Origin: Tistrella mobilis KA081020-065
GTDB taxonomy: Bacteria; Pseudomonadota; Alphaproteobacteria; Tistrellales; Tistrellaceae
Direction of reading: 5' to 3'
DNA length: 64,000 bases
Assembly (NCBI RefSeq): GCF_000264455.2
Contig: NC_017958.1
Location: 372,001-436,000, forward strand
Positions 13,119-25,178 of this stretch are shown in pieces. Position 1 is the stretch's first letter; the number at the start of each line of letters is the position of its first letter. The notes beneath the pieces were generated by a model. It was not told the origin of the DNA. It worked only from the letters and a program-made list of their open reading frames with translations, and did no database searches. Both the position numbers and the translations under genes were made by a program.

Positions 13119-14318
13119 CTAAGGCGAACCGCGGCCTGTCACGAGATGGAAGATCAGGCCGGCGGCGCTGATCCCCGCCCCTGTCAGGCAGACCCCCGAC
13201 CAGCCGGCCAGGGCATAGGCCGAGGTCGAGGCAACGCCCCCCAGCGCGCTGCCGGCGGCATAGAAGACCATATAGCCCCCGACCAGCCGGCTCTGCGCCT
13301 TCGGGAAGGCCGCAAAGATCAGACTCTGACTGGTGACATGCACCGCCTGAACGGCGAGGTCGAGCAGGATCACCCCGATCACCAGCAGCACCAGCGACTG
13401 CCCCAGAAGCGCGATCGGCGCCCAGGACAGGGTCAGGATCGCGAGTGCAAGGCCGGTCGTCCATCCGCCAAGGCCCCTGTCGGCCAGCCGGCCCGCGACC
13501 CCCGCGGCAAGCGCCCCCGCCAGGCCCGCCAGGCCGAACAGCCCCACCTCGGTATGCGAGAGCAGAAGCGGCGGCGCGCGCAGCGGCAGAACCACCGGCG
13601 TCCAGAATGTGCTGAAGGCTGCGAAGATCAGGAAGGCCAGCACCGCCCGCCGGCGCAGCAGCGGCCTCTGCAGGAACAGGACCGGGATCGACCGGATCAG
13701 CGCCCCGTAGCCGATCGGCGCCACCGGTGCCGGATGGTGCGGCAACAGGCGGCGGAGCATGACCGCCAGCCCCAGCATCAGGACGGCAGAGGTCAGGTAG
13801 ACCGCCCGCCAGCCGCCGAGATCGGCGATGGTGCCCGAGACGAAGCGGGCGGCGAGGATCCCGGCAACCACGCCGCTGGTCACCAGCCCCACCGCCCGCC
13901 CCCGTTCGGCCGCCGGTGCCAGCGCCGCGGTGAAGGCAACCAGGACCTGGACGACCACCGCCAGCAGCCCCACCGCGAGCATGCCGGCCAGAAACACCCC
14001 GGCCGTCGGCGCGGTGCCCGCAATCGCCAGTGCCGCGGCCGACAGGGTGATCTGGCGAAGTACAAGCCGGCGCCGGTCGATCAGATCCCCCAGCGGCACG
14101 ACGAACACCAGCCCGATCGCATAGCCGATCTGGGTCAGGGTCACGACCAGCCCGATCCGCGCCGGTGCAATCCCGAACGAGGCGGCAATGGCATCGAGCA
14201 GCGGCTGGGCGTAGTAGATGTTGGCGACCGCAACACCGCAGGCGGCGGCGAAGATCGGCAGGGCCCGGCGCGGCAGGGCCGTCTCGGTCGGGGAAACGGG
14301 AGAGATGGAATGGGTCAT
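13119..14318 (-). CDS. MFS transporter (drug-efflux-like, YnfM/AraJ type)
   Basis: A 399-residue major facilitator with about 12 membrane segments. The first helix reads AAACGVAVANIYYAQPLLDAIAASFGI and the loop 2-3 motif is present as VPLGDLIDRRRLVL, typical of small-molecule exporters. The ATG at 14318 is preferred; an ATG at 14348 is possible but lies only 24 bases from the dyad at 14372-14394. It is divergent from the HxlR regulator at 14421, a common regulator-exporter pair, so this pump is probably controlled by that protein. Substrate unknown. Confidence 0.85.
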   Translation of the reverse strand: MTHSISPVSPTETALPRRALPIFAAACGVAVANIYYAQPLLDAIAASFGIAPARIGLVVTLTQIGYAIGLVFVVPLGDLIDRRRLVLRQITLSAAALAIAGTAPTAGVFLAGMLAVGLLAVVVQVLVAFTAALAPAAERGRAVGLVTSGVVAGILAARFVSGTIADLGGWRAVYLTSAVLMLGLAVMLRRLLPHHPAPVAPIGYGALIRSIPVLFLQRPLLRRRAVLAFLIFAAFSTFWTPVVLPLRAPPLLLSHTEVGLFGLAGLAGALAAGVAGRLADRGLGGWTTGLALAILTLSWAPIALLGQSLVLLVIGVILLDLAVQAVHVTSQSLIFAAFPKAQSRLVGGYMVFYAAGSALGGVASTSAYALAGWSGVCLTGAGISAAGLIFHLVTGRGSP

Positions 14319-14901: not shown

Positions 14902-15573
14902 TCACCCCTGCAACCGGCTCAAATTCTTCGCCACCGCCTCCTGCATCGCCGCCCCTGAGCGGCGGACATGGTCGCGCATGGCCTGAAAGGCTGCATCGGC
15001 GTCACCTGCGCGGATCGCCACCATGATCCGGGCGTGGTCGTCCGCCGAATCGGCGGCGCTGCGCCGGACCATCAACTGGTGGAACTGCATGCGGTAGATC
15101 GGCAGGGTCAGCCCCTCGGCCACTTCTCGCAGCTTGGCATTGCCGGCCATGTCATAGATCAGGCGGTGAAAGCGGGCATTGTGCTCGATATAACGCGTGC
15201 CACCTTCGGCCGTGGCCTCCGCCGCCTCGGCCGCGATCTCGTCCAGACGTCGGCGGTTGTCACCCTGGTCGATGTTCAGTGCCGCCAGCTCCGCCGCCCG
15301 CGCCTCGACCGCCTCGCGCACCGAGAAGATCTCGGCGATGTCGGCCGCCTCGAAGCGGCGGACCACGGCGCCGCGATTGGGCTGCACGTCGACCAGCCCC
15401 TCGCCGTTCAGGCGCCGGATTGCCTCGCGCACCGGCCCGGCGCTCACCCCCAGTCTTTTGGTGATGTCGGCCACGATCAGCCGCTGACCCGGGGCGAAGC
15501 TGTGGTCGCGGATGCCCTCGCGCAGCGCGTTGATGGTGAAGTCGACGACCGATTCTTCCGTCTCGTGTGCCAT
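14902..15573 (-). CDS. GntR-family transcriptional regulator, FCD subfamily
   Basis: A 223-residue FadR-like regulator. The winged helix spans about residues 10-75 (INALREGIRDHSFAPGQRLIV and RLGVSAGPVREAIRRLNGEGLV), followed by an FCD domain with likely metal-binding residues in NARFHRLIYDMAGN. It is divergent from the lyase/hydratase/TRAP operon starting at 15704. This layout makes it the likely controller of that operon, responding to the imported acid or an intermediate. Confidence 0.9.
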   Translation of the reverse strand: MAHETEESVVDFTINALREGIRDHSFAPGQRLIVADITKRLGVSAGPVREAIRRLNGEGLVDVQPNRGAVVRRFEAADIAEIFSVREAVEARAAELAALNIDQGDNRRRLDEIAAEAAEATAEGGTRYIEHNARFHRLIYDMAGNAKLREVAEGLTLPIYRMQFHQLMVRRSAADSADDHARIMVAIRAGDADAAFQAMRDHVRRSGAAMQEAVAKNLSRLQG

Positions 15574-15606
15574 GCGCGTCCCGGGGGCTGAGGTCCTGTC
15601 CGCCAG

Positions 15607-15616
15607 ATCCTAGGAT
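15607..15616. promoter_or_regulatory. Candidate GntR/FCD operator (ATCCTAGGAT)
   Basis: A perfect 10-base palindrome in the divergent promoter region, with a related half-site TATAGGAT at 15659-15666. FCD regulators commonly bind such short dyads. The surrounding AT-rich sequence, including TTTTATTAAGATTTTTT at 15666-15682, is the likely promoter of the 15704 operon. Confidence 0.5.
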
Positions 15617-15703
15617 AATTTCCTCCCATAATCCAGTTGCACCCCTTCGGAATCGTGCTATAGGATTTTATTAAGATTTTTTCTGAACATGTGGGAGGAC
15701 TCA

Positions 15704-16567
15704 ATGACGAAGCGTGCCGCGCTGCGCCACCTGATCGCAGCACCCGAGCTTCTGGTGGCGCCGGGCGCCTGGGACGGGCTCACCGCCCGCCTGGTGGAAC
15801 AGGCGGGATTTCAGGCCGTCTACATGACCGGGGCCGGCACGGCCGCCGCTCATGGCTTTCCCGATTACGGCCTGGTGACCGGCACCGAGATGGCGGCCAA
15901 TGCCGCCCGGATGGCCGATTGCACCACTATCCCGCTGATCGCCGATGCCGATACCGGCTACGGCAACGAACTCAACGTCACCCGCACCGTGCGCGACTAC
16001 GAACGCGCGGGCGTCGCCGCACTGCATATCGAGGATCAGGTGGCACCCAAGCGCTGCGGCCATCTGGACGGCAAGCAGGTGATCCCGGCCGAGGAATTCG
16101 CCGGCAAGATCCGAGCAGCCGTCCAGGCCCGGCGCGACCCCGATCTGGTGATCATCGCCCGCACCGATGCCCGCGCGGTGGCCGATCTGGACGAGGCCGT
16201 CGCCCGCGCCAATGCCGCGGTCGAAGCCGGCGCCGATCTGATCTTCGTCGAGGCGATCCCAGAGATGGCCGAACTTGCGGCAGTGCCGCAGCGGGTACAC
16301 GGCCCCTGCCTGCTGAACGTGGTGCCGGGCGGCAAGACCCCGCCGGTCGACCTCGGTGCGGCACAGGCGATGGGCTATGCCATGGCGATCTGCCCGGCCG
16401 TGCTGCTGACCACCGTCCTGGCGGCGGGCGACCGGGCGCTGGCCGATCTGAAGGCCATGGGCCTGCCCACCGACCGTCCTGCTGCCGGGGTGGTCGAGGC
16501 CTTCCGGCGCTTCGGCTCGGGTGAATGGGATGCCCTGCGGCGCGACTATGCCGGAACCGCGGCATGA
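15704..16567 (+). CDS. Isocitrate lyase/PEP mutase family C-C lyase
   Basis: A 287-residue TIM-barrel enzyme of the isocitrate lyase/PEP mutase superfamily, close in layout to methylisocitrate lyase and 2,3-dimethylmalate lyase. Metal-binding DADTGYG is at 81-87, and PKRCGH carries the catalytic cysteine C118 found in true lyases, so a C-C lyase is more likely than a PEP mutase. A GGGAGGA ribosome site supports the start at 15704. First gene of a seven-gene operon; with the LeuCD-like hydratase it would cleave a 2-hydroxy di- or tricarboxylate into two smaller acids. The exact substrate is inference. Confidence 0.85.
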   Translation: MTKRAALRHLIAAPELLVAPGAWDGLTARLVEQAGFQAVYMTGAGTAAAHGFPDYGLVTGTEMAANAARMADCTTIPLIADADTGYGNELNVTRTVRDYERAGVAALHIEDQVAPKRCGHLDGKQVIPAEEFAGKIRAAVQARRDPDLVIIARTDARAVADLDEAVARANAAVEAGADLIFVEAIPEMAELAAVPQRVHGPCLLNVVPGGKTPPVDLGAAQAMGYAMAICPAVLLTTVLAAGDRALADLKAMGLPTDRPAAGVVEAFRRFGSGEWDALRRDYAGTAA

Positions 16568-17985
16568 CCGCCGCCGTGATGCCTTCCTCGGGCCAGAGCC
16601 TGGTCGACAAGATCTGGGCGCAGCATGTCATCCGCGATCTGGGCGACGGCTGGGCGCTGATCCATATCGACCGTCACATCCTCCACGACCTGTCGGGGCC
16701 GCCGGCCCTCGGCAAGGTTCAGGCCGCCGGGCGCCGCGTGTCCATGCCCGGGCTGACTTTCGCCACCCCTGACCATGCGGTCTCCTCGCGCCCCGGCCGC
16801 ACGGCAGCGAGCTTCCCGCCCGGCGGCCGGCTGATCGAGGCCCTGCGCGATCTCACGGCACACGCCGGCATCCGTCTCTTCGACCTGGACGAGGACGGCC
16901 AGGGCATCGTCCATGTCACCGCCCCCGAACTCGCTATATCGCTGCCCGGGCTGACGGTGATCTGCGGCGACAGCCACACCTGCACGCATGGCGGGCTGGG
17001 GGCCCTTGCTTTCGGGGTGGGTACCTCGGAAAGCGCCCATGCGCTGGCCACCCAGACGCTCCGGATGCAGAAGCCGCGGCGGATGCGGGTGCTGGTCGAG
17101 GGCCGGCTCGGCGCCCATGTGACCGCCAAAGATCTGGCGCTGCATCTGATGCGTCGGCTGGGCAGCGCGGCAGGCGTCGGCCATACGGTCGAATATGCCG
17201 GCAGCGCCGTGCGTGCACTCGGTGTCGAGGCCCGGCTGACCCTGTGCAATCTCTCGGTCGAGATGGGCGCGCGCTCCGGGCTGATCGCCCCCGACGACAC
17301 CGTCTTCGGCTGGCTCGCCGGGCGCGACTATGCCCCCAAAGGCGGGGATTTCGACCAGGCGGTCGCCGTCTGGCGGGATCTCGCCTCCGACGAGGACGCG
17401 GTGTTCGACCGCGAAGCCGTGTTCGATGCCGCAGAGGTCGCTCCCACGATCAGCTGGGGCACCAGCCCCGATCAGTCGATCGCGATCGATGAAGCCGTAC
17501 CCGATCCCGACCGGGCGCCGGCGACCTCACGCGAAGGCATGCGTGCGGCGCTCGACTATATGGGGCTGGAAGCGGGCCGACCGCTGATCGGCACGCCGGT
17601 CGACTGGGTGTTCGTCGGCTCCTGCGCCAATGCCCGGATCGAAGATCTGCGTGCCGCCGCCGCCATCGCCCGCACCGGTCGGGTGGCACCGGGCGTCACC
17701 GCCTGGGTGGTGCCGGGCTCGGTCCGGGTCAAGCGCGCGGCCGAGGCAGAGGGGCTGGACCGGGTGTTTCGCGAGGCCGGTTTCGCCTGGCGCGAGCCGG
17801 GGTGCGCAATGTGCGTCGCCGCCAATGGCGAGCAGGTACCGCCGGGCGCCCGGTCGGTCTCCACCTCCAACCGCAACTTCGTCGGCCGGCAGGGACCGCG
17901 CGCCCGCACCCACCTGGCGAGTCCGGCAACGGCTGCGGCCGCGGCACTCGCCGGCCGGATCGTCGACGTGAGGACCCATTCCTGA
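16564..17985 (+). CDS. Aconitase-superfamily hydratase, large subunit (LeuC-like)
   Basis: A 473-residue homologue of the 3-isopropylmalate dehydratase large subunit and dimethylmaleate hydratase. It keeps VICGDSHTCTHGGLGALAFGVGTSE and the 4Fe-4S ligands: the cysteine of this first motif, C354 (GSCANARIEDL), and C414 and C417 (GCAMC). The start overlaps the lyase stop (ATGA at 16564). The context with a lyase, PrpF and a TRAP importer points to a catabolic hydratase rather than leucine synthesis, since no leuA or leuB is present. Confidence 0.87.
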   Translation: MTAAVMPSSGQSLVDKIWAQHVIRDLGDGWALIHIDRHILHDLSGPPALGKVQAAGRRVSMPGLTFATPDHAVSSRPGRTAASFPPGGRLIEALRDLTAHAGIRLFDLDEDGQGIVHVTAPELAISLPGLTVICGDSHTCTHGGLGALAFGVGTSESAHALATQTLRMQKPRRMRVLVEGRLGAHVTAKDLALHLMRRLGSAAGVGHTVEYAGSAVRALGVEARLTLCNLSVEMGARSGLIAPDDTVFGWLAGRDYAPKGGDFDQAVAVWRDLASDEDAVFDREAVFDAAEVAPTISWGTSPDQSIAIDEAVPDPDRAPATSREGMRAALDYMGLEAGRPLIGTPVDWVFVGSCANARIEDLRAAAAIARTGRVAPGVTAWVVPGSVRVKRAAEAEGLDRVFREAGFAWREPGCAMCVAANGEQVPPGARSVSTSNRNFVGRQGPRARTHLASPATAAAAALAGRIVDVRTHS

Positions 17986-18620
17986 TGTTCGAACCCGTGA
18001 TCCGGATCACCGGCCCGGCAGCGCCCCTGCCCGTGGCCAATCTCGACACCGACGTGATCATCCGCATCGAGCGCCTGACCTCGGGCGAGGTGACGGGGCT
18101 CGGGCCCTGGGCCTTCGAGAGCATCCGATACCGCCCGGACGGGACCGAGGATCCCGCCTTCCCGCTCAACGATCCGCGCTGGCGGGATGCCCGCATCCTG
18201 CTCGCCGGCCCCAATTTCGGCTGCGGATCCTCGCGGGAGCCGGCCGTGAATGCCATCCTCCAGGCCGGCATCCGCTGCGTGATCGCCCCCGATTTCGGCG
18301 ACATCTTCCACGCCAACTGCTTCCAGAACGGTCTCTTGCCGATCCGCATGGATCAGGCGGAAGTCACGCGGCTGATGGCGGAAGCCGAAGACGGCGGCGA
18401 CGTCACCGTCGACCTTGAGGCCTGCACCGTCGCCTCGCCCTCGGGCGCGGTCAGGGGCTTCACGATCGACCGGGCCCGCCGCGAGGCGCTGATGGCCGGG
18501 CTCGACGACATGGGGCTGACGCTTCGTCATGCAGACGACATCACCGCCTGGCAGCAGAGTGACCGCGCCCGCCGCCCCTGGGTCTGGGCGATTACCGGGG
18601 ACTGTGGCGTTGCGGGCTGA
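17985..18620 (+). CDS. Aconitase-superfamily hydratase, small subunit (LeuD-like)
   Basis: A 211-residue swivel-domain subunit partnering the preceding LeuC-like protein. Motifs: NLDTDVIIRIERL near the N-terminus, the substrate loop ILLAGPNFGCGSSREPAVNAI and the region GIRCVIAPDFGDIFHANCFQNGLLPI. Its ATG shares one base with the upstream stop codon. Together the two subunits should hydrate or dehydrate an unsaturated di- or tricarboxylate feeding the lyase. Confidence 0.9.
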   Translation: MFEPVIRITGPAAPLPVANLDTDVIIRIERLTSGEVTGLGPWAFESIRYRPDGTEDPAFPLNDPRWRDARILLAGPNFGCGSSREPAVNAILQAGIRCVIAPDFGDIFHANCFQNGLLPIRMDQAEVTRLMAEAEDGGDVTVDLEACTVASPSGAVRGFTIDRARREALMAGLDDMGLTLRHADDITAWQQSDRARRPWVWAITGDCGVAG

Positions 18621-18700
18621 TCATCATTTCTTATGCATATCTTTTACTAAAATCGGACAGCATGCCCCTGCAGGAAGATCCGATGGGAGGAGACGGACCG

Positions 18701-19888
18701 GTGGATGACGCCGACATGATCGAGATTCCCGCCGTGCTGATGCGCGGCGGCACGAGCAAGGCCCTGTTCTTCCACGAGAAGGATCTGCCGCCGGCCGGTC
18801 CGGACCGCGACCGGATGCTGCTCCGCGCGATGGGCTCACCCGATCTGATGCAGATCGACGGGCTCGGCGGCTCGCGGCTGGTGACGTCCAAGATCGCGAT
18901 CATCCGGCCGTCGGACCGGCCGGATGCCGACGTGATCTACACCTTCGCCCAGGTCGACACCGACCGGGCAGTGATCGGCTATGAAGGCAATTGCGGCAAC
19001 ATCTCCTCGGCGGTCGCGCCCTTCGCCGTCGACGAGGGGCTGGTTGCGACCGATGCGTCCGAGGTGACGGTGCGGATCTGGAACGCCAATACCGACAAGA
19101 TCCTGCGCTCGCGGGTTCAGGTGAAGGGCGGCCGGGCCAGAGTGCTCGGCGACTGTGCCATTCCGGGTGTTCCCGGTACCGGTGCCGAGATCATGATGGA
19201 CTATGCCGACACCGTCGGCGCTGCCACGGGCCGGCTCTTCCCCTCTGGCGCCGTGGCCCAGACCATCGCGCTTTCCGACGGCACAGAGGTACGGGTGACG
19301 CTCTGCGACGTCGGCAATGCGGGCGTGTTCATCCGCGCCGAAGACCTCGGCATGGACGGCTCGGAACTGCCCGACCGGATCATGGCGGATCCGGTACTCA
19401 CCCGGCGGATCGCCGAGGTCCAGGCCCGCATGGGCGTCGCCTGCGGCTACTGGACCGACTGGCGGAGCGTCGATCGTCCGGGCCTGCCCCAGGCCCTGCT
19501 GGTGATGCCGCCCACCGGCTTCCACACCTCCGACGGCCGCCATCTCACCGCGGATGAGATGGATGTGTGGGGCCGGATGTTCTTCCTCGGCAAATGCCAT
19601 GACAGCATGTCGGGCACGGGCTCGATGTGTTTCGCCGCCGCCTCGGCCGTGCCGGGCACGGTGGTGGCGGATGCCATGCGCGAGACCCGGCTCACCCCCG
19701 GCCGGGTGGTGATCGGCCATCCGCTGGGGGCCATGTCGGTCGAGGTGGAGCCGATCACTGCCGGCGATCCGGCCGAAACCCGCTATGCGCGGCTTGGCTT
19801 CGCCCGCACCGCCCGCCGGCTGATGGCCGGCACCCTCTACATCCCCCGCGACGACTGGCCCCGGCCGGTCACACTCGCCGCGGACTGA
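18701..19888 (+). CDS. PrpF-family cis/trans isomerase (aconitate or methylaconitate isomerase-like)
   Basis: A 395-residue PrpF homologue with the N-terminal signature IPAVLMRGGTSKALFFHEKDLP, EGNCGNISSAVAPFAVDEGL and the C-terminal GHPLGAMSVEVE. PrpF proteins isomerise the double bond of aconitate-type acids. The GTG at 18701 is chosen because GGGAGGAGA lies just upstream and the conserved core starts soon after; ATGs at 18662 and 18683 would add a non-conserved extension. An AT-rich stretch at 18621-18660 may hold a second promoter. In the methylcitrate cycle PrpF partners AcnD; here the hydratase is the two-subunit LeuCD type. Confidence 0.87.
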   Translation: MDDADMIEIPAVLMRGGTSKALFFHEKDLPPAGPDRDRMLLRAMGSPDLMQIDGLGGSRLVTSKIAIIRPSDRPDADVIYTFAQVDTDRAVIGYEGNCGNISSAVAPFAVDEGLVATDASEVTVRIWNANTDKILRSRVQVKGGRARVLGDCAIPGVPGTGAEIMMDYADTVGAATGRLFPSGAVAQTIALSDGTEVRVTLCDVGNAGVFIRAEDLGMDGSELPDRIMADPVLTRRIAEVQARMGVACGYWTDWRSVDRPGLPQALLVMPPTGFHTSDGRHLTADEMDVWGRMFFLGKCHDSMSGTGSMCFAAASAVPGTVVADAMRETRLTPGRVVIGHPLGAMSVEVEPITAGDPAETRYARLGFARTARRLMAGTLYIPRDDWPRPVTLAAD

Positions 19889-19938
19889 TCCGCGGCGCCC
19901 GGACATAAAAAAGACGACGCCCCATCGGGAGGACACCC

Positions 19939-20961
19939 ATGACCATCACCCGCCTGGCCCGCGCCACGGCGATCGCCGCTCTGTTCGGCGGAACCGCCCT
20001 CACCGGAACCGCCTTCAGCACCGCCGCCATGGCCGCAGACTGGACCATGCGCATCAGCCACCAATGGTCGCCCGGCCTGCCGACCGCGAAACTCCTCGAC
20101 GGCTTCGAAAAGACCGTCGAGGAGAAGAGCGGCGGCCGCCTCGATGTCCAGATCTTCCCCGCCATGCAGCTTTACAAGGCCGACCAGCAGCATGCCGCGG
20201 TCGCCCAGGGGCTGATCGAGGCGACGGTGATGCCCGACTTCACCATGGGCGGCACGGTGCCCGAGATGGTGGTGTCACTGATACCCTTCCTGGTCCGCGA
20301 CGAGGCCTCGGTGCGCGCCTTCCCGTCATCGAAGGTGGCGGAGCTGCTGGAAGAGAAACTGCGCGCCCGCATGGTCGAGCCGATCGGCTGGACGGTCGAG
20401 TCGCGCAGCCTGCTGATCACCTCCAACGGCCGGCCGCTGTCGGAGCCCGATGCCTTCAAGGGCGTGAAGATCCGCGGCCTGAACCCGCTCTATGACAAGG
20501 GTCTGGCGGCGCTGGGTGCCACGCCGACCGCGATGCCGGCCGCCGAAATCTATCAGGCGCTGCAGACCGGTATCATCGATGCCACGGTCACCGGCACTAC
20601 GGGAGCCCTGGGCCGCAAGTTCTACGAGGTGCAGGAATACGGGGTGGTGGCACCCGGCATCTCCTTCGCCAAGAACGTCTTCCTGGTCAATCCCGGCTGG
20701 TGGCAGGACCTGCCCGACGACATCCGCCGGATCATCACCGATGCCACCGACGAGATGTGGACGACGTCCGTCGAGGCCAATCTGGACCCGCGCGCCGATC
20801 CGGCGATCAAGGGGCTGGAGACGGCGGGGATGAAGATGACGGTGCTCGACGACGCCCAGAGCGCGGCCCTCGCCCAGGTCATGGCCCCCCCGGTGATGAG
20901 CGCCTTTTCCGAGATGGGCCGCGATGCCCGCCGGGTCGTCGACCTGTCGCGGGCGGAGTGA
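19939..20961 (+). CDS. dctP: TRAP transporter substrate-binding protein (DctP family)
   Basis: A 340-residue periplasmic solute-binding protein. The signal peptide ends at the AMA site around residue 32. The carboxylate-binding arginine R179 lies in FKGVKIRGL, followed by LGATPTAMPAAEIYQALQTGIIDA, the family signature. A GGGAGGA ribosome site precedes the ATG. It hands an organic acid to the DctQM membrane proteins encoded directly downstream. The ligand is probably the acid metabolised by the lyase/hydratase/isomerase set in the same operon. Confidence 0.92.
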   Translation: MTITRLARATAIAALFGGTALTGTAFSTAAMAADWTMRISHQWSPGLPTAKLLDGFEKTVEEKSGGRLDVQIFPAMQLYKADQQHAAVAQGLIEATVMPDFTMGGTVPEMVVSLIPFLVRDEASVRAFPSSKVAELLEEKLRARMVEPIGWTVESRSLLITSNGRPLSEPDAFKGVKIRGLNPLYDKGLAALGATPTAMPAAEIYQALQTGIIDATVTGTTGALGRKFYEVQEYGVVAPGISFAKNVFLVNPGWWQDLPDDIRRIITDATDEMWTTSVEANLDPRADPAIKGLETAGMKMTVLDDAQSAALAQVMAPPVMSAFSEMGRDARRVVDLSRAE

Positions 20962-20965
20962 GCGG

Positions 20966-21532
20966 ATGACCGCCGCACCCGGCCCCGATCATCGCCCCGA
21001 CCGCCCCGTCACAAGGCCCGATCGTCTCTTTACACGGATCGTCCGATGGACGGTCCGCCTCACCCACGGCCTCGCCTCGGCCGGACTGCTGGGCTGCCTG
21101 GTGCTGGTGGGCTGGTCGGTGGTCTCCCGCTATCTCCTCGACGCGCCGCTGACCTGGGTGGACGACGCCGTCGCTTTCGCCCTGGTCGCGATCGTGACCC
21201 TGAGCGCCGCCGAAGTGACCCGGCGTGACGAACACATCGCCGTCGACCTGCTGACATCTCGTTCCGGCCCGGCCGGACGCCGGATCACCGGCATCGTCTC
21301 GGCCCTCGCCACCATCCTGCTCTGCCTCACGATCATCTGGCAGGGCTGGGCCTCGGCCGGTTTTGCCCGGATCATCGGCATCACGCTGGGTGGCACGCTG
21401 GAATGGCCGGTCTGGCCCTTCCTGCTGATGCTCTCGGCCGGCGCGGCGCTGATCGCATTGGTGGCGTTGGATGCGCTCCTCCGGCTGATTCTCGACGGAG
21501 CCCCCGCGCCGCACGACGGAGAGGCCGCATGA
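20966..21532 (+). CDS. dctQ: TRAP transporter small permease (DctQ family)
   Basis: A 188-residue small membrane subunit with about four membrane segments after a proline- and arginine-rich start. The DctQ pattern is visible in VVSRYLLDAPLTWVDDAVAFALVAIVTLSAAEVTRRDEHIAVDLL. It starts five bases after the dctP stop, and its own stop overlaps the dctM start (ATGA at 21529). The long N-terminal stretch before the first helix is somewhat unusual, but no better start is visible. Confidence 0.9.
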   Translation: MTAAPGPDHRPDRPVTRPDRLFTRIVRWTVRLTHGLASAGLLGCLVLVGWSVVSRYLLDAPLTWVDDAVAFALVAIVTLSAAEVTRRDEHIAVDLLTSRSGPAGRRITGIVSALATILLCLTIIWQGWASAGFARIIGITLGGTLEWPVWPFLLMLSAGAALIALVALDALLRLILDGAPAPHDGEAA

Positions 21533-22812
21533 CCCTGATCCTGCTGCTAGCCGGGCTGATCCTGCTGCTGCTGACCGGGCTGCCGATCTTCGTGGTGCTG
21601 ATGCTGTTCGCCGGCGCGCTCGAACTCGTCAATGGCGGGGCGCTGTCGACCTTCCCGGCGTTGATCGTGGGGGAATTCGCCCAGTATCTGCTGGTCGCCA
21701 TCCCGCTCTTCGCCTTCATGGCCCATGTGATGATCCGCAGCCGGATCGTCGATGACCTCTACGATACCGCCTTCGTGCTCACCCGACATCTGCCGGGCGG
21801 GGTCGGCATTGCCACGGTCGCCGCCTGCGTGGTCTTCGCCGCCATCTCGGGGTCGAGCGTCGCCACCGCCCTCACCATCGGTGCAGTCGCGATCCCGCAG
21901 ATGCTGAAATTCGGCTACACCCCGCGCGCCGCCTATGGCCTCGTGGCGGCCGGCGGCACGCTCGGCATCCTGATCCCACCCTCGGGGCCGCTGCTGCTCT
22001 ACGGCGTGACGGCGGACGCTTCGATCGGCCAGCTGTTCATGGCCGGCGTGTTGCCCGGGCTGCTGATCGCGGCCCTGTTTGTCGCCTGGACGGTGGGCGC
22101 TTCGGGCCTGCGCAGCACACAGCCCCGTCTGCCGCGCGCCGGGCTGGCCGAGGCGGCGGGCGCCGTGCGCCGCTCCTTCTGGGCGCTCTCGCTGCCGGTC
22201 TTCGTGCTGGGCGGCATGTATGCCGGCATCTTCACCGCCACCGAGGCGGCGGGAACCGGTGCCATTCTGGCGCTGCTGATCGGCATCCTGATCTATCGCA
22301 GCATCGGCCTGCGTGAGATCTGGGCCTCGGTCCAGGACGCCTGCCGGACTTCGGCCATGCTGTTCATGATTCTGGCCGGTGCCGCAATGCTGAACCAGGT
22401 CCTGACCAAGATGCGCCTGCCGCAGGAGATCCTGCAGCTGGTCGCCGGGGCCGATCTCGGCGCCATCGGCTTCATTCTGTGCGTGATGGCGCTGATCTTC
22501 GTGCTCGGCATGTTCCTGGAAGCGATCTCGATCATCCTGATCACCACGCCGGTGGTGGCGCCGGTGCTGCACCAGCTGGGGGTGAACCCGGTCTGGTACG
22601 GCATCCTGCTGGTGATCAACCTTGAACTCGCGATGATCACCCCGCCGGTCGGGCTCAATCTGTTCACCATCAAGTCGATCACCCGGGCGCCCCTGGGCGA
22701 GATCATCATGGGCACGCTGCCCTATATCGCCATCCTGATGATCGGCCTCGGCATTCTGCTCGCCTGGCCGGATATCGCGCTCTGGTTGCCGGCAACGATG
22801 ATGGGGCGCTGA
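21529..22812 (+). CDS. dctM: TRAP transporter large permease (DctM family)
   Basis: A 427-residue ion-coupled permease with about 12 hydrophobic segments. DctM landmarks include FAAISGSSVATALTIGAVAIPQMLKFGYTPRAAYGLVAAGGTLGILIPPSGPLLLYG and the C-terminal ELAMITPPVGLNLFTIKSI. It is the main transport channel working with DctP and DctQ. It is the last gene of the operon and is followed by an intrinsic terminator at 22886-22924. Confidence 0.93.
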   Translation: MTLILLLAGLILLLLTGLPIFVVLMLFAGALELVNGGALSTFPALIVGEFAQYLLVAIPLFAFMAHVMIRSRIVDDLYDTAFVLTRHLPGGVGIATVAACVVFAAISGSSVATALTIGAVAIPQMLKFGYTPRAAYGLVAAGGTLGILIPPSGPLLLYGVTADASIGQLFMAGVLPGLLIAALFVAWTVGASGLRSTQPRLPRAGLAEAAGAVRRSFWALSLPVFVLGGMYAGIFTATEAAGTGAILALLIGILIYRSIGLREIWASVQDACRTSAMLFMILAGAAMLNQVLTKMRLPQEILQLVAGADLGAIGFILCVMALIFVLGMFLEAISIILITTPVVAPVLHQLGVNPVWYGILLVINLELAMITPPVGLNLFTIKSITRAPLGEIIMGTLPYIAILMIGLGILLAWPDIALWLPATMMGR

Positions 22813-22924: not shown

Positions 22925-22950
22925 TCCGAATTGCTTTTAAGATCACAAAA

Positions 22951-22956
22951 TATAAT
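22951..22956 (+). promoter_or_regulatory. Candidate -10 box for the MFS gene
   Basis: A perfect TATAAT in an AT-rich island just after the terminator, 38 bases before the MFS start. A -35 element is not clear (TTGCTT at 22931 is spaced only 14 bases away). It suggests the transporter has its own promoter. Confidence 0.4.
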
Positions 22957-22994: not shown

Positions 22995-24287
22995 ATGTCC
23001 ACGATACCACTGCCGGCCGCCACTGCACGGCGGCAGAGCCTCAGGCCGATCATCGCGGCGACGGTGGGCTGCCTGCTCGAATGGTATGATTTCGCGGTCT
23101 ATGGCTATTTCGCCGTGGTGATCGCGAAACTGTTCTTCCCCACCGGCTCGGACTGGACCTCGCTGCTGCTCGCGGTCGCGACTTTCGGGGTGGGTTTTGC
23201 CATGCGGCCGGTGGGTGCCCTGGTGCTCGGCACGCTGGCCGACCGGCACGGCCGTAAGGCGGCGCTCAGCCTGACCATCACCACCATGGTTTTCGGCACC
23301 GCGCTCATCGCCTTCGCCCCCACCCATGCCGAAATCGGCCTCTGGGCACCGGTGCTGATCGTGATCGGCCGCCTGATCCAGGGGTTTTCGGCGGGGGGTG
23401 AAATGGGGGTCGCCACTGCCTGGCTGGTGGAATATGCCGGCCCCGGCCGCCGCATGCTGCAGGCGAGCTTTCAGCAGATGACCCAGCTGACGGCGCTGCT
23501 CGCCGGCTCGCTGACCGGCGCGCTGGTCACCGGCCTGCTCTCCCCCACCGAGGTCGAAGCCTGGGGCTGGCGGATCCCGTTCATGGTCGGGCTGATCATC
23601 GGCCCGATCGGCTGGTACATCCGCCGCCACACCGCAGAGCCGCCGGAATTCGCCGCCCGCCAGGCCGCACGCGATGCCCGCGCCCCCCGGATCTCTCCGG
23701 CCCATGTCATCCGCGCCCATCCGCGCGCGGCGCTCGCCGGGTTCTGCATCACCATTCTCTGGACGATCTGCACCTATTTCTTCCTGGTCTATATGCCGAC
23801 CTATGCGATCCGCGAACTGGGCATCGCCGCCGACGGCGCGCTGATCTCCAATGCCGTGGCGCTGGCGGTTGCCGTCGTCTTCGTGCCGGGCTTCGCCATC
23901 CTGGCCGATCGCCGCGGCCCGCGGCCGGTGATGACCGCGGCGGCGCTGGTGCTGCTCGCGGCCAGCTGGCCGGCGCTCGCCACCCTCACCACCTTCCCCC
24001 AGCTGCCGACGCTGATCCTGGTCCAGGCGGCACTGGCCATCCCCATCGCCGCCTTCACCGGACCGGCCGGCGGCGCCATGGCCGGCCTGTTTCCCCCTGA
24101 CACCCGCGCCACCGGCATGTCCATCGCCTACAATTTCGCCGTCACCCTGTTCGGCGGCTTCGCCCCCTTCATCGCCACCTGGGCGATCGGCGTCACCGGC
24201 GACCCGCATGCCCCGGCCTGGTATCTCTGCTTCGGCGCCGCCGCCGCCGTGATCGGCGTGCGGTTGATGGGCGGGCGGCGGGAGTGA
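22995..24287 (+). CDS. MFS transporter, metabolite:H+ symporter (MHS) family
   Basis: A 430-residue symporter of the ProP/CitA/KgtP type. Family features are ATVGCLLEWYDFAVYGYFAVVIAKLFFP at the start, the loop motif GTLADRHGRKAALSLTI and RLIQGFSAGGEMGVATAWLVEYA. Members import osmolytes, citrate, 2-oxoglutarate or aromatic acids with protons. A GGGAGGGAG ribosome site precedes the ATG. It is separated from the TRAP operon by a terminator but may serve the same or a related acid; the substrate is unknown. Confidence 0.88.
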   Translation: MSTIPLPAATARRQSLRPIIAATVGCLLEWYDFAVYGYFAVVIAKLFFPTGSDWTSLLLAVATFGVGFAMRPVGALVLGTLADRHGRKAALSLTITTMVFGTALIAFAPTHAEIGLWAPVLIVIGRLIQGFSAGGEMGVATAWLVEYAGPGRRMLQASFQQMTQLTALLAGSLTGALVTGLLSPTEVEAWGWRIPFMVGLIIGPIGWYIRRHTAEPPEFAARQAARDARAPRISPAHVIRAHPRAALAGFCITILWTICTYFFLVYMPTYAIRELGIAADGALISNAVALAVAVVFVPGFAILADRRGPRPVMTAAALVLLAASWPALATLTTFPQLPTLILVQAALAIPIAAFTGPAGGAMAGLFPPDTRATGMSIAYNFAVTLFGGFAPFIATWAIGVTGDPHAPAWYLCFGAAAAVIGVRLMGGRRE

Positions 24288-24478: not shown

Positions 24479-24775
24479 ATGGAGAAGTGGCGGCCGCATC
24501 ATCCGCTGAGCCTCGTGCAGGCGCTGGCCCTTACCGGCCGTTTTCGCATGACCGGCACGGCACGCGCTGGAGCGAGTCGTCTTCTGCTCGATCAGCAGGA
24601 CGTCCTCGACATCGTAAGTCAGCTTGCACAGGGCGATTTCCACAAGAGCATGACGACATATGCCGATCACACCATCTGGCAGGACGTGTACCGCCCTTAT
24701 ACCCCGGCGGGCCATGTCTACCTGAAACTCACCGTCACCGACGATCTCCTCATCGTCTCGTTTAATGAGGTGTGA
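24479..24775 (+). CDS. mqsR: MqsR-family mRNA interferase toxin
   Basis: A 98-residue toxin of the RelE-fold MqsR family, the same length as the E. coli protein. It keeps the MEK start, LSLVQALALTGRFRMT and the diagnostic block KSMTTYADHTIWQDVYRP followed by HVYLKLTV and LIVSF. MqsR cleaves mRNA, preferentially at GCU in E. coli. As usual for this family, the toxin gene precedes the antitoxin; mqsA starts one base after the toxin stop. Upstream DNA (24330-24480) is AT-rich compared with the neighbours, suggesting the module was acquired. Confidence 0.93.
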   Translation: MEKWRPHHPLSLVQALALTGRFRMTGTARAGASRLLLDQQDVLDIVSQLAQGDFHKSMTTYADHTIWQDVYRPYTPAGHVYLKLTVTDDLLIVSFNEV

Positions 24776-24776
24776 C

Positions 24777-25178
24777 GTGAAATGCCCTGTATGTGGCGCA
24801 GCCGAGCTTGTCCACGATACGCGCGACCAGACCTTCACCTATAAAGGCGAGACTGCGGTCATCTCTCGGGTGGTGGGCGATTACTGCCCCGCCTGCGGTG
24901 AATCCCTCACTGCCCCGGACGAGACCGACCGGGTCATGCGCGAGATGCGCGACTTCATGAAGCAGGTGAATGCTCGTGCGGTCGACCCGTCCTTCATCAC
25001 CGCCGTCCGCAAGAAGCTGGCCCTGGATCAGCGCGAAGCCGGCAGGATCTTCGGCGGAGGCGTGAATGCGTTCTCGCGTTACGAAACCGGCAAGGCAGAG
25101 CCCCCCGTCGCACTCGTGAAGCTCCTCCGCGTGCTCAATCGCCATCCACATCTGCTCGACGAAGTTCGCGCGGATTGA
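24777..25178 (+). CDS. mqsA: MqsA-family antitoxin
   Basis: A 133-residue antitoxin. The N-terminal zinc domain has C3, C6, C37 and C40 (MKCPVCG and YCPACGE), matching the E. coli spacing, and the C-terminal Xre-like helix-turn-helix (DQREAGRIFGGGVNAFSRYETGKAEPP) binds DNA. The GTG at 24777 gives the typical MKCPVCG start; an upstream ATG at 24765 lies inside mqsR. It neutralises MqsR and represses the operon through the palindrome at 24456-24470. Its last 38 bases are part of a 56-bp repeat duplicated at 26278-26333. Confidence 0.93.
   Translation: MKCPVCGAAELVHDTRDQTFTYKGETAVISRVVGDYCPACGESLTAPDETDRVMREMRDFMKQVNARAVDPSFITAVRKKLALDQREAGRIFGGGVNAFSRYETGKAEPPVALVKLLRVLNRHPHLLDEVRAD

Follow-up and report, generated by a model that had tools for sequence, protein, structure and literature searches.

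A putative coenzyme A-free operon for methyl-branched unsaturated dicarboxylic acids in Tistrella mobilis

The last steps of nicotinate fermentation in Eubacterium barkeri are performed by 3-methylitaconate isomerase (Mii), 2,3-dimethylmaleate hydratase (DmdAB), and 2,3-dimethylmalate lyase (Dml). Here we describe an operon of comparable composition in Tistrella mobilis KA081020-065, located at positions 15704-22812 of a 64,000-nucleotide stretch (C4:372001-436000, hereafter the window) of a 6.5 Mb genome in five contigs. All of its genes lie on the plus strand, in the order lyase, LeuC-type and LeuD-type hydratase subunits, PrpF-family isomerase, and the DctP, DctQ, and DctM subunits of a tripartite ATP-independent periplasmic (TRAP) importer. 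Judged from sequence, this is a real and recurrent catabolic module, most likely for methyl-branched unsaturated dicarboxylates. The more specific proposal, coenzyme A (CoA)-free breakdown of such an acid (methylitaconate/dimethylmaleate, or the C5 pair itaconate/citraconate) to pyruvate plus propionate or acetate, is one that we hold with evenly balanced confidence. The features in question are as follows.

14902-15573, minus strand: GntR/FCD-family regulator, divergent from the operon (Pfam FCD 6.7e-23, GntR 7e-14)
15574-15703, no strand: divergent intergenic region, candidate operator, read by eye
15704-16567, plus strand: C-C lyase of the phosphoenolpyruvate (PEP) mutase/isocitrate lyase superfamily, 287 aa (Pfam PEP_mutase 1e-51)
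16564-17985, plus strand: LeuC-type hydro-lyase large subunit, 473 aa (Pfam Aconitase 1e-151)
17985-18620, plus strand: LeuD-type small subunit, 211 aa (Aconitase_C 4.5e-22)
about 18701-19888, plus strand: PrpF-family isomerase (PF04303 6.6e-103)
19939-20961, plus strand: DctP, TRAP solute-binding protein (PF03480 5e-53)
20966-21532, plus strand: DctQ, TRAP small permease (PF04290 1.5e-26; start from the gene call)
21529-22812, plus strand: DctM, TRAP large permease (Pfam 2e-95; TIGR00786 346.8 bits, cut-off 268.45; start from the gene call)

Successive operon genes were separated by -4, -1, about +80, +50, +4, and -4 bases, with four-base overlaps at lyase/LeuC and DctQ/DctM and a one-base overlap at LeuC/LeuD, and the Pfam scores of the operon proteins were far past chance. 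Translation of the isomerase probably starts at the GTG at 18701, ahead of which a GGAGGAG was read by eye; 18683 and 18662 were the alternatives. The original prediction, drawn from the letters of the window, had named these genes, and all of them were found on the plus strand at the same positions. It had also held that the set could import, isomerize, hydrate, and cleave an acid, a claim that the gene families support.

We infer the substrate, products, import, and regulation as follows, with the operon encoding by itself a CoA-free route for the catabolism of a small unsaturated dicarboxylic acid with a methyl branch. The DctPQM importer would bring in the diacid, and the PrpF/Mii-type isomerase would then shift its double bond from exo or trans to cis, turning 3-methylitaconate into 2,3-dimethylmaleate, or itaconate/mesaconate into citraconate. 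The LeuCD-type [4Fe-4S] hydratase would add water, yielding (2R,3S)-2,3-dimethylmalate or (R)-citramalate, and the lyase would cleave the C2-C3 bond to give pyruvate with propionate (C6) or acetate (C5), the whole operon being controlled by the GntR/FCD protein. The C6 acid was slightly preferred over the C5 acid, as enzymes have been described for all three of its steps.

Relatives were collected by a contig scan with four module lyases, which confirmed 580 stretches; the best 80 of these were taken. A core locus was defined as a LeuC of at least 58% identity adjoining a lyase, and 15 of the 80 loci were of this kind; L063, cut by a contig end, was counted among the 65 others though its LeuC piece is 66% identical. 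The lyase-LeuCD core recurred in Alpha- and Betaproteobacteria. PrpF was nearby in 7 of the 15 core loci and in none of the 65 others (Fisher 2e-6, with shared ancestry uncorrected), and the counts were 7/12 versus 0/42 among loci with at least 4 kb of sequence on either side. Further core loci with PrpF came from Variovorax (L057), Cupriavidus (L059), and genome G590 (L147); in Methylobacterium currus, PrpF was not matched, and the core was accompanied by an ATP-binding cassette (ABC) importer with a binding protein that groups with a member of the NMT1 family. Across the scanned loci, NMT1 was near the lyase in 1/15 core loci versus 10/65 others. The importers of core relatives were TctC proteins or an ABC importer. 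In Streptantibioticus, a PrpF of the module clade (52%) and a lyase (49%) stood with a distant LeuC-family hydratase (30%) and, by eye, an MmgE/PrpD-like gene. These sets suggest that the isomerase and lyase are kept while the hydratase type and importer vary. Plasmid records name such pairs 3-isopropylmalate dehydratase beside an isocitrate lyase/PEP mutase family protein. As a separate observation, a protein of 244-292 aa stood beside the lyase in five loci (L063, L068, L070, L086, and L116), and the one copy tested, from L086, matched Sua5_yciO_yrdC (1.5e-11).

Among its solved relatives, the operon isomerase is by sequence closest to Mii. Its Protein Data Bank (PDB) ranking was headed by the 3-methylitaconate isomerase 3g7k (294 bits), followed by the methylaconitate isomerases 2h9f, 2pvz, and 5k87 (203-205 bits), LigU (6p3j, 189 bits), and YbhH (178 bits). 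In a careful tree of 32 rows, with YbhH, the L069 PrpF, and a broken L070 PrpF outside it, 11 module rows (ten from core loci plus Streptantibioticus) and one Paraburkholderia row formed a single clade (100/100), next to which 3g7k was placed (90/82) and from which the PrpF clade (100/100) and LigU were apart. The original prediction had regarded PrpF as extra to the dimethylmaleate branch of nicotinate breakdown; this did not hold, as its nearest relative in both ranking and tree is that branch's own isomerase. Two other identities were considered and set aside: the methylaconitate isomerase PrpF, given a score below the NCBIfam cut-off (TIGR02334, 249.9 against 440.55 bits) and a separate clade, and the 4-oxalomesaconate tautomerase LigU, given a score below the cut-off of its own model (NF033377, 311.8 against 440 bits) and the position of 6p3j in another clade. 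The L070 gene (L070:12898-13955, Variovorax paradoxus ISL-3), 69% identical to that of the window, was called as two pieces, possibly through a frameshift or an assembly error.

The lyase scored under the cut-off of the methylisocitrate lyase model (TIGR02317 prpB, 273.6 against 354.4 bits), and its PDB ranking was led by the 2,3-dimethylmalate lyase 3fa3 (206 bits; 46% identity over 256 columns of a segment), ahead of 4iqd (194 bits) and 3eoo (176 bits). It carries the motifs YMTGAG (residues 40-45, common to 3fa3), KRCGH (116-120), and NVVPGG (205-210), and the start of KRCGH at residue 116 bears out the catalytic cysteine that had been predicted at C118. The segment N-x-T-E-F-G is found in 1mum, 3eoo, 6t4v, and 1o5q, which the PDB names methylisocitrate lyases, in 4iqd, named a carboxyphosphoenolpyruvate phosphorylmutase, and in the genome's own PrpB. 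Its Thr position, which in isocitrate lyase presumably faces the second carboxylate of succinate, is occupied by Val in the window lyase (N-V-V-P-G-G) and in 3fa3 (N-M-V-E-H-G), and by Ile in the petal death protein (N-M-I-E-G-G). Across 97 aligned lyase rows, Val was present in 81 and Thr in two, both PrpB-like. In a quick tree of 66 rows picked from 103, the 21 core-module lyases lay outside the PrpB group (support 99*) and on one side of a branch from the other named groups (92, not starred), with 39 rows in no group that may fall within the core-module side. An identity as PrpB was rejected on the basis of the sub-threshold score, the position outside the PrpB clade, and the change from Thr to Val; PEP mutase (TIGR02320, 126.9 against 319.55 bits) and phosphonopyruvate hydrolase (TIGR02321, 119.5 against 374.4 bits) were rejected as well. 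The name "dimethylmalate lyase" alone proves little, as it is also given to lyases in methylcitrate clusters in two papers (PMC9804861, PMC8471276).

The hydratase pair belonged to the leucine-type family. Its large subunit exceeded the cut-offs of PRK12466 (675 bits, cut-off 531) and PRK05478 and fell just below that of TIGR00170 leuC (559 against 560.25 bits), and its small subunit exceeded TIGR00171 leuD (173.7 bits, cut-off 116.25) and fell below LEUD_arch (72 against 108.95 bits). Cysteines C354, C414, and C417, which we take to be the cluster ligands of the LeuC-type subunit, are kept in SCANARIEDL and GCAMC, and LeuD keeps GCGSS; the conserved hydratase residues of the original prediction were thus present, their ligand role being family knowledge. 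The loop after the DTD motif, presumably the substrate-recognition loop of the LeuD family, reads IIRIERLT (residues 25-32). An Arg after II was found in 18 of 39 LeuD sequences compared (the window's and 17 relatives), all from core-type loci. Only one of the 19 core-type LeuD sequences, from L079, departed from this, with Pro after II but IHRLT; the other 18, including those of the window and L147, usually took the form IIR[IV][ED]RL[TA]. All 20 non-core sequences had Pro after II, the genome's true LeuD included (one was read by eye). The usual loops IIPARFL and IIPKQYL hold one basic residue of their own, and since that residue is lost, the net charge gain is smaller than two arginines suggest.

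The genome contains eight LeuC matches including the query, the closest paralogues being 56% (C3) and 50% (C1) identical. The C1 paralogue is followed by leuD and leuB (TIGR00169, 482 bits), and by its gene content this leuC-leuD-leuB locus is the leucine enzyme of the genome. As it lies on another contig, the operon pair is not; that the pair might be the sole leucine enzyme had been named beforehand as an outcome that would speak against a catabolic role, and the check instead returned the separate locus on C1. A function as leucine isopropylmalate isomerase was rejected on this ground and on that of a loop without Pro. A second LeuCD-like pair on C3 (L048:9070-13609, LeuC 56%) lay by a CoA-transferase III and an acyl-CoA dehydrogenase.

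The three adjacent subunits of the DctP, DctQ, and DctM families make up a DctPQM TRAP transporter set; DctP has a signal-peptide-like N-terminus by eye, and its closest PDB chain, 4nn3 (125 bits), comes without a ligand name. At 1e-75, DctP matches were found in 4 of 385 class genomes, namely its own, two siblings, and G135. In G135 (L163:6649-10495), the gene immediately upstream of a DctPQM set akin to that of the window encodes a superfamily lyase, and no LeuCD or PrpF match was found in this stretch; the motif of that lyase reads NNLDGGLSP. Plasmid homologues of DctP (38-44%, E at most 1e-40) adjoined a CoA-transferase and a gene named hydroxymethylglutaryl-CoA (HMG-CoA) lyase in 7/7 records, and in the one plasmid example scanned, from Rhizobium (L159), the HMG-CoA lyase-like gene scored just below the cut-off (234 against 246). 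The HMG-CoA-lyase family presumably includes (R)-citramalyl-CoA lyase. A 2-alkylmalate such as citramalate, cleavable either as a CoA ester or as a free acid, would unite these contexts of DctP homologues. The original prediction had named an unrelated DctP ligand as a refuting outcome, and the surroundings of the homologues mostly agree with the prediction.

These neighbors bear on the C5 version of the proposal, in which PrpF would convert itaconate/mesaconate to citraconate, LeuCD would hydrate it to (R)-citramalate, and the lyase would release pyruvate and acetate, a version that we consider possible but doubtful. The pair of genes in the plasmid records would suit (R)-citramalate; two Methylobacterium core loci also adjoin genes for an HMG-CoA lyase and a member of the CoA-transferase III family, and isopropylmalate isomerases hydrate citraconate. 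However, the Methylobacterium lyase is over the HMG-CoA lyase cut-off (304 against 246) and may therefore serve HMG-CoA, and the action of Mii on itaconate is a presumption. Acyl-CoA ligases also accompanied four of the 15 core loci and none of the 65 others, and the three that were checked (L068, L086, and L116) pass the cut-off of 3-(methylthio)propionyl-CoA ligase (PRK07008); such ligases fit a product acid longer than acetate and would be needless for acetate itself.

An unlikely reading is that the operon imports and breaks down a tricarboxylate (trans-aconitate, an alkylated aconitate, or 2-methylcitrate), serving as the tail of a methylcitrate cycle without its synthase. Membership of the isomerase in the PrpF family would agree with this, as would the genes found near the core: MmgE/PrpD, seen in six of the 15 core loci and none of the 65 others, and TctC receptors (7/15 versus 14/65). 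The best argument for such substrates comes from the LeuD loop, where arginines occupy new positions. Against it, PrpD, PrpC, and PrpB already stand together on C1 (PrpB 411.6 bits, over its cut-off; PrpD 884 bits, below its 950), so that the operon lyase is not the genome's PrpB, and neither the operon lyase nor its isomerase has the clade position, nor the lyase the score or the Thr, that a methylcitrate role would lead one to expect. Tricarboxylates therefore appeared less likely. Of the candidates offered by the original prediction, the citraconate/mesaconate and alkylated-malate types were retained, and trans-aconitate and other tricarboxylates were disfavored by the pocket residue of the lyase and the kinship of PrpF, though the LeuD arginines may oppose this.

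At two further C1 loci, a lyase and a hydratase of the aconitase family are accompanied by an ABC importer and an IclR regulator, suggesting that import-hydrate-cleave modules are a theme of this genome. The lyases of these loci (L050:5056-13450 and L051:3887-12842) read KRCPV/KRCPA where the family has KRCGH, so their catalytic loop is changed. Another lyase-superfamily member, on C3 (L055:4834-6985; phosphonopyruvate hydrolase 347 against 374.4 bits), is next to an aminotransferase.

Still less probable is a longer-chain version, in which alkyl-itaconates, alkylmaleates, or isopropylmalate would yield a 2-oxoacid and a fatty acid, the latter then activated by an acyl-CoA ligase. The PRK07008-type ligases by the core in the three loci above would suit it, and the LeuC/LeuD family natively handles an isopropyl group, but the window operon contains no ligase, the true LeuD loop IIPKQYL is replaced in core LeuD, and PrpF has no evident role with isopropylmalate. 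Very improbable is phosphonate metabolism by a PEP-mutase-family enzyme, a LeuCD-like pair, and a phnR-like regulator: the top NCBIfam match of the regulator is phnR_burk and a Pantoea phosphonate paper came up for isopropylmalate dehydratase, PrpF, and gene cluster (PMC7858074), but the regulator (114.7 bits) falls 157 bits short of the 271.5 cut-off, the lyase has KRCGH and is far under the PEP mutase and phosphonopyruvate hydrolase cut-offs, and the cassette (the segment missing from sibling genomes, described below) showed no phosphonate gene.

Several observations weigh against CoA-free dicarboxylate breakdown as we propose it. In the lyase ranking, 3fa3 was only 12 bits ahead of the next PDB chain, and in the lyase tree it was a long branch of unsure place, as was the petal death protein, and not a sister of the module. 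The placement of 3g7k next to the module clade was not starred. The LeuD loop has arginines at two new positions, and these could accommodate a third carboxylate. PrpF appeared optional, as it was missing from eight of the 15 core loci, some of which are truncated by contig ends, and DctM was near the lyase in 0 of 80 loci, with TRAP and core together found in the window only. The seven plasmid records are not independent, as close relatives (two Sulfitobacter and one Pseudosulfitobacter) are included. Lastly, the genome's own DctP paralogue (C1:750636, L162; 45%) had TRAP genes and a GntR-type regulator (NCBIfam) alongside, and none of the queried enzymes next to it.

With regard to regulation, a perfect palindrome, ATCCTAGGAT, was read by eye at 15607-15616 of the divergent intergenic region, with a second TAGGAT at 15661-15666, and the palindrome is a possible operator. 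Among relatives, a GntR gene lay upstream of the lyase at several loci, mostly divergent, and was of UTRA type in the one tested (L070).

Two sibling genomes, G033 of the same species and G162 of the same genus, were without the cassette. The match to G033 stopped at window position 13125 and resumed at 22950, the interval being taken up by 1.63 kb of different sequence, and that to G162 stopped at 13208 and resumed at 22952. At 1e-60, PrpF was matched in neither sibling, and at 1e-150 LeuC was best matched by the 56% paralogue in both. A major facilitator superfamily (MFS) gene at 13119-14318, inside the cassette boundary, is reduced in G162 to a pair of colinear remnants, 66 and 72 bases long, and on account of these, loss from G162 is favored over gain by the window genome. 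A second MFS gene, at 22995-24287, was rejected as a cassette member, as it is kept at 94% in both cassette-less siblings, beside the upstream flank of the cassette. Beyond it, at 24479-25178, two small overlapping genes resemble an MqsR/MqsA toxin-antitoxin pair by eye, and the siblings match a 172-base piece only (78-79%).

A literature search, with most subscription papers outside its reach, found no description of this gene set among the titles and abstracts listed, which is a weak negative. Each step resembles a known enzyme, and what stands without an assigned substrate is the stand-alone combination. It is possible, though we place it somewhat below an even chance, that a Mii-type isomerase, a LeuCD retuned by IIRIERLT, and a dimethylmalate/citramalate lyase make up an undescribed CoA-free proteobacterial route for itaconate, citraconate, methylitaconate, and dimethylmaleate. 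The LeuD loop, the Mii-type isomerase, and the separate lyase clade could serve as sequence marks that distinguish this catabolic module from the enzymes of leucine and methylcitrate metabolism. If the substrate belongs to the itaconate family, the operon would represent CoA-free use of antibacterial, immunologically active, and industrially interesting acids and a tool to make or remove citramalate and citraconate; citraconate and (R)-citramalate would gain a catabolic pathway.

The leucine LeuCD is of the same family as the operon pair, with the cysteines kept, but the latter lies outside a leu operon, has a changed loop after DTD, and falls just below the TIGR00170 cut-off. In Pseudomonas, the transporter PA0884-0886 is presumably of the TRAP type. 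Together with the itaconate CoA-ester route PA0878-PA0883 it resembles the operon in joining a branched C5 dicarboxylate pathway to a transporter (PMC9875883), whereas the window operon has no CoA-transferase, itaconyl-CoA hydratase, or citramalyl-CoA lyase. According to that paper, wild-type P. putida KT2440 failed to use the C5 acids tested, and P. putida carrying PA0878-PA0883 utilized itaconate, (S)-citramalate, mesaconate, and methylsuccinate; citraconate and (R)-citramalate, two acids that the operon module could serve, were not utilized. The methylcitrate cycle (PrpBCD, AcnD-PrpF) shares the isomerase-hydratase-lyase logic, and some relatives of the operon add an MmgE/PrpD-type gene; the operon differs in having no synthase, LeuCD in place of AcnD, a lyase outside the PrpB clade, and a true prpDCB elsewhere in the genome. 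The Mii-DmdAB-Dml branch of E. barkeri is matched by a Mii-closest isomerase, a two-subunit hydratase of the aconitase superfamily, and a lyase of the PEP mutase/isocitrate lyase superfamily. In contrast to that branch, the operon hydratase is of LeuCD type and not LEUD_arch/DmdB (as judged by family models), an importer feeds the pathway, and the operon revealed neither a nicotinate nor a methyleneglutarate gene. By this analogy, the proposed chemistry would be that of the last three steps of nicotinate fermentation, performed with another type of hydratase and on a substrate supplied from outside.

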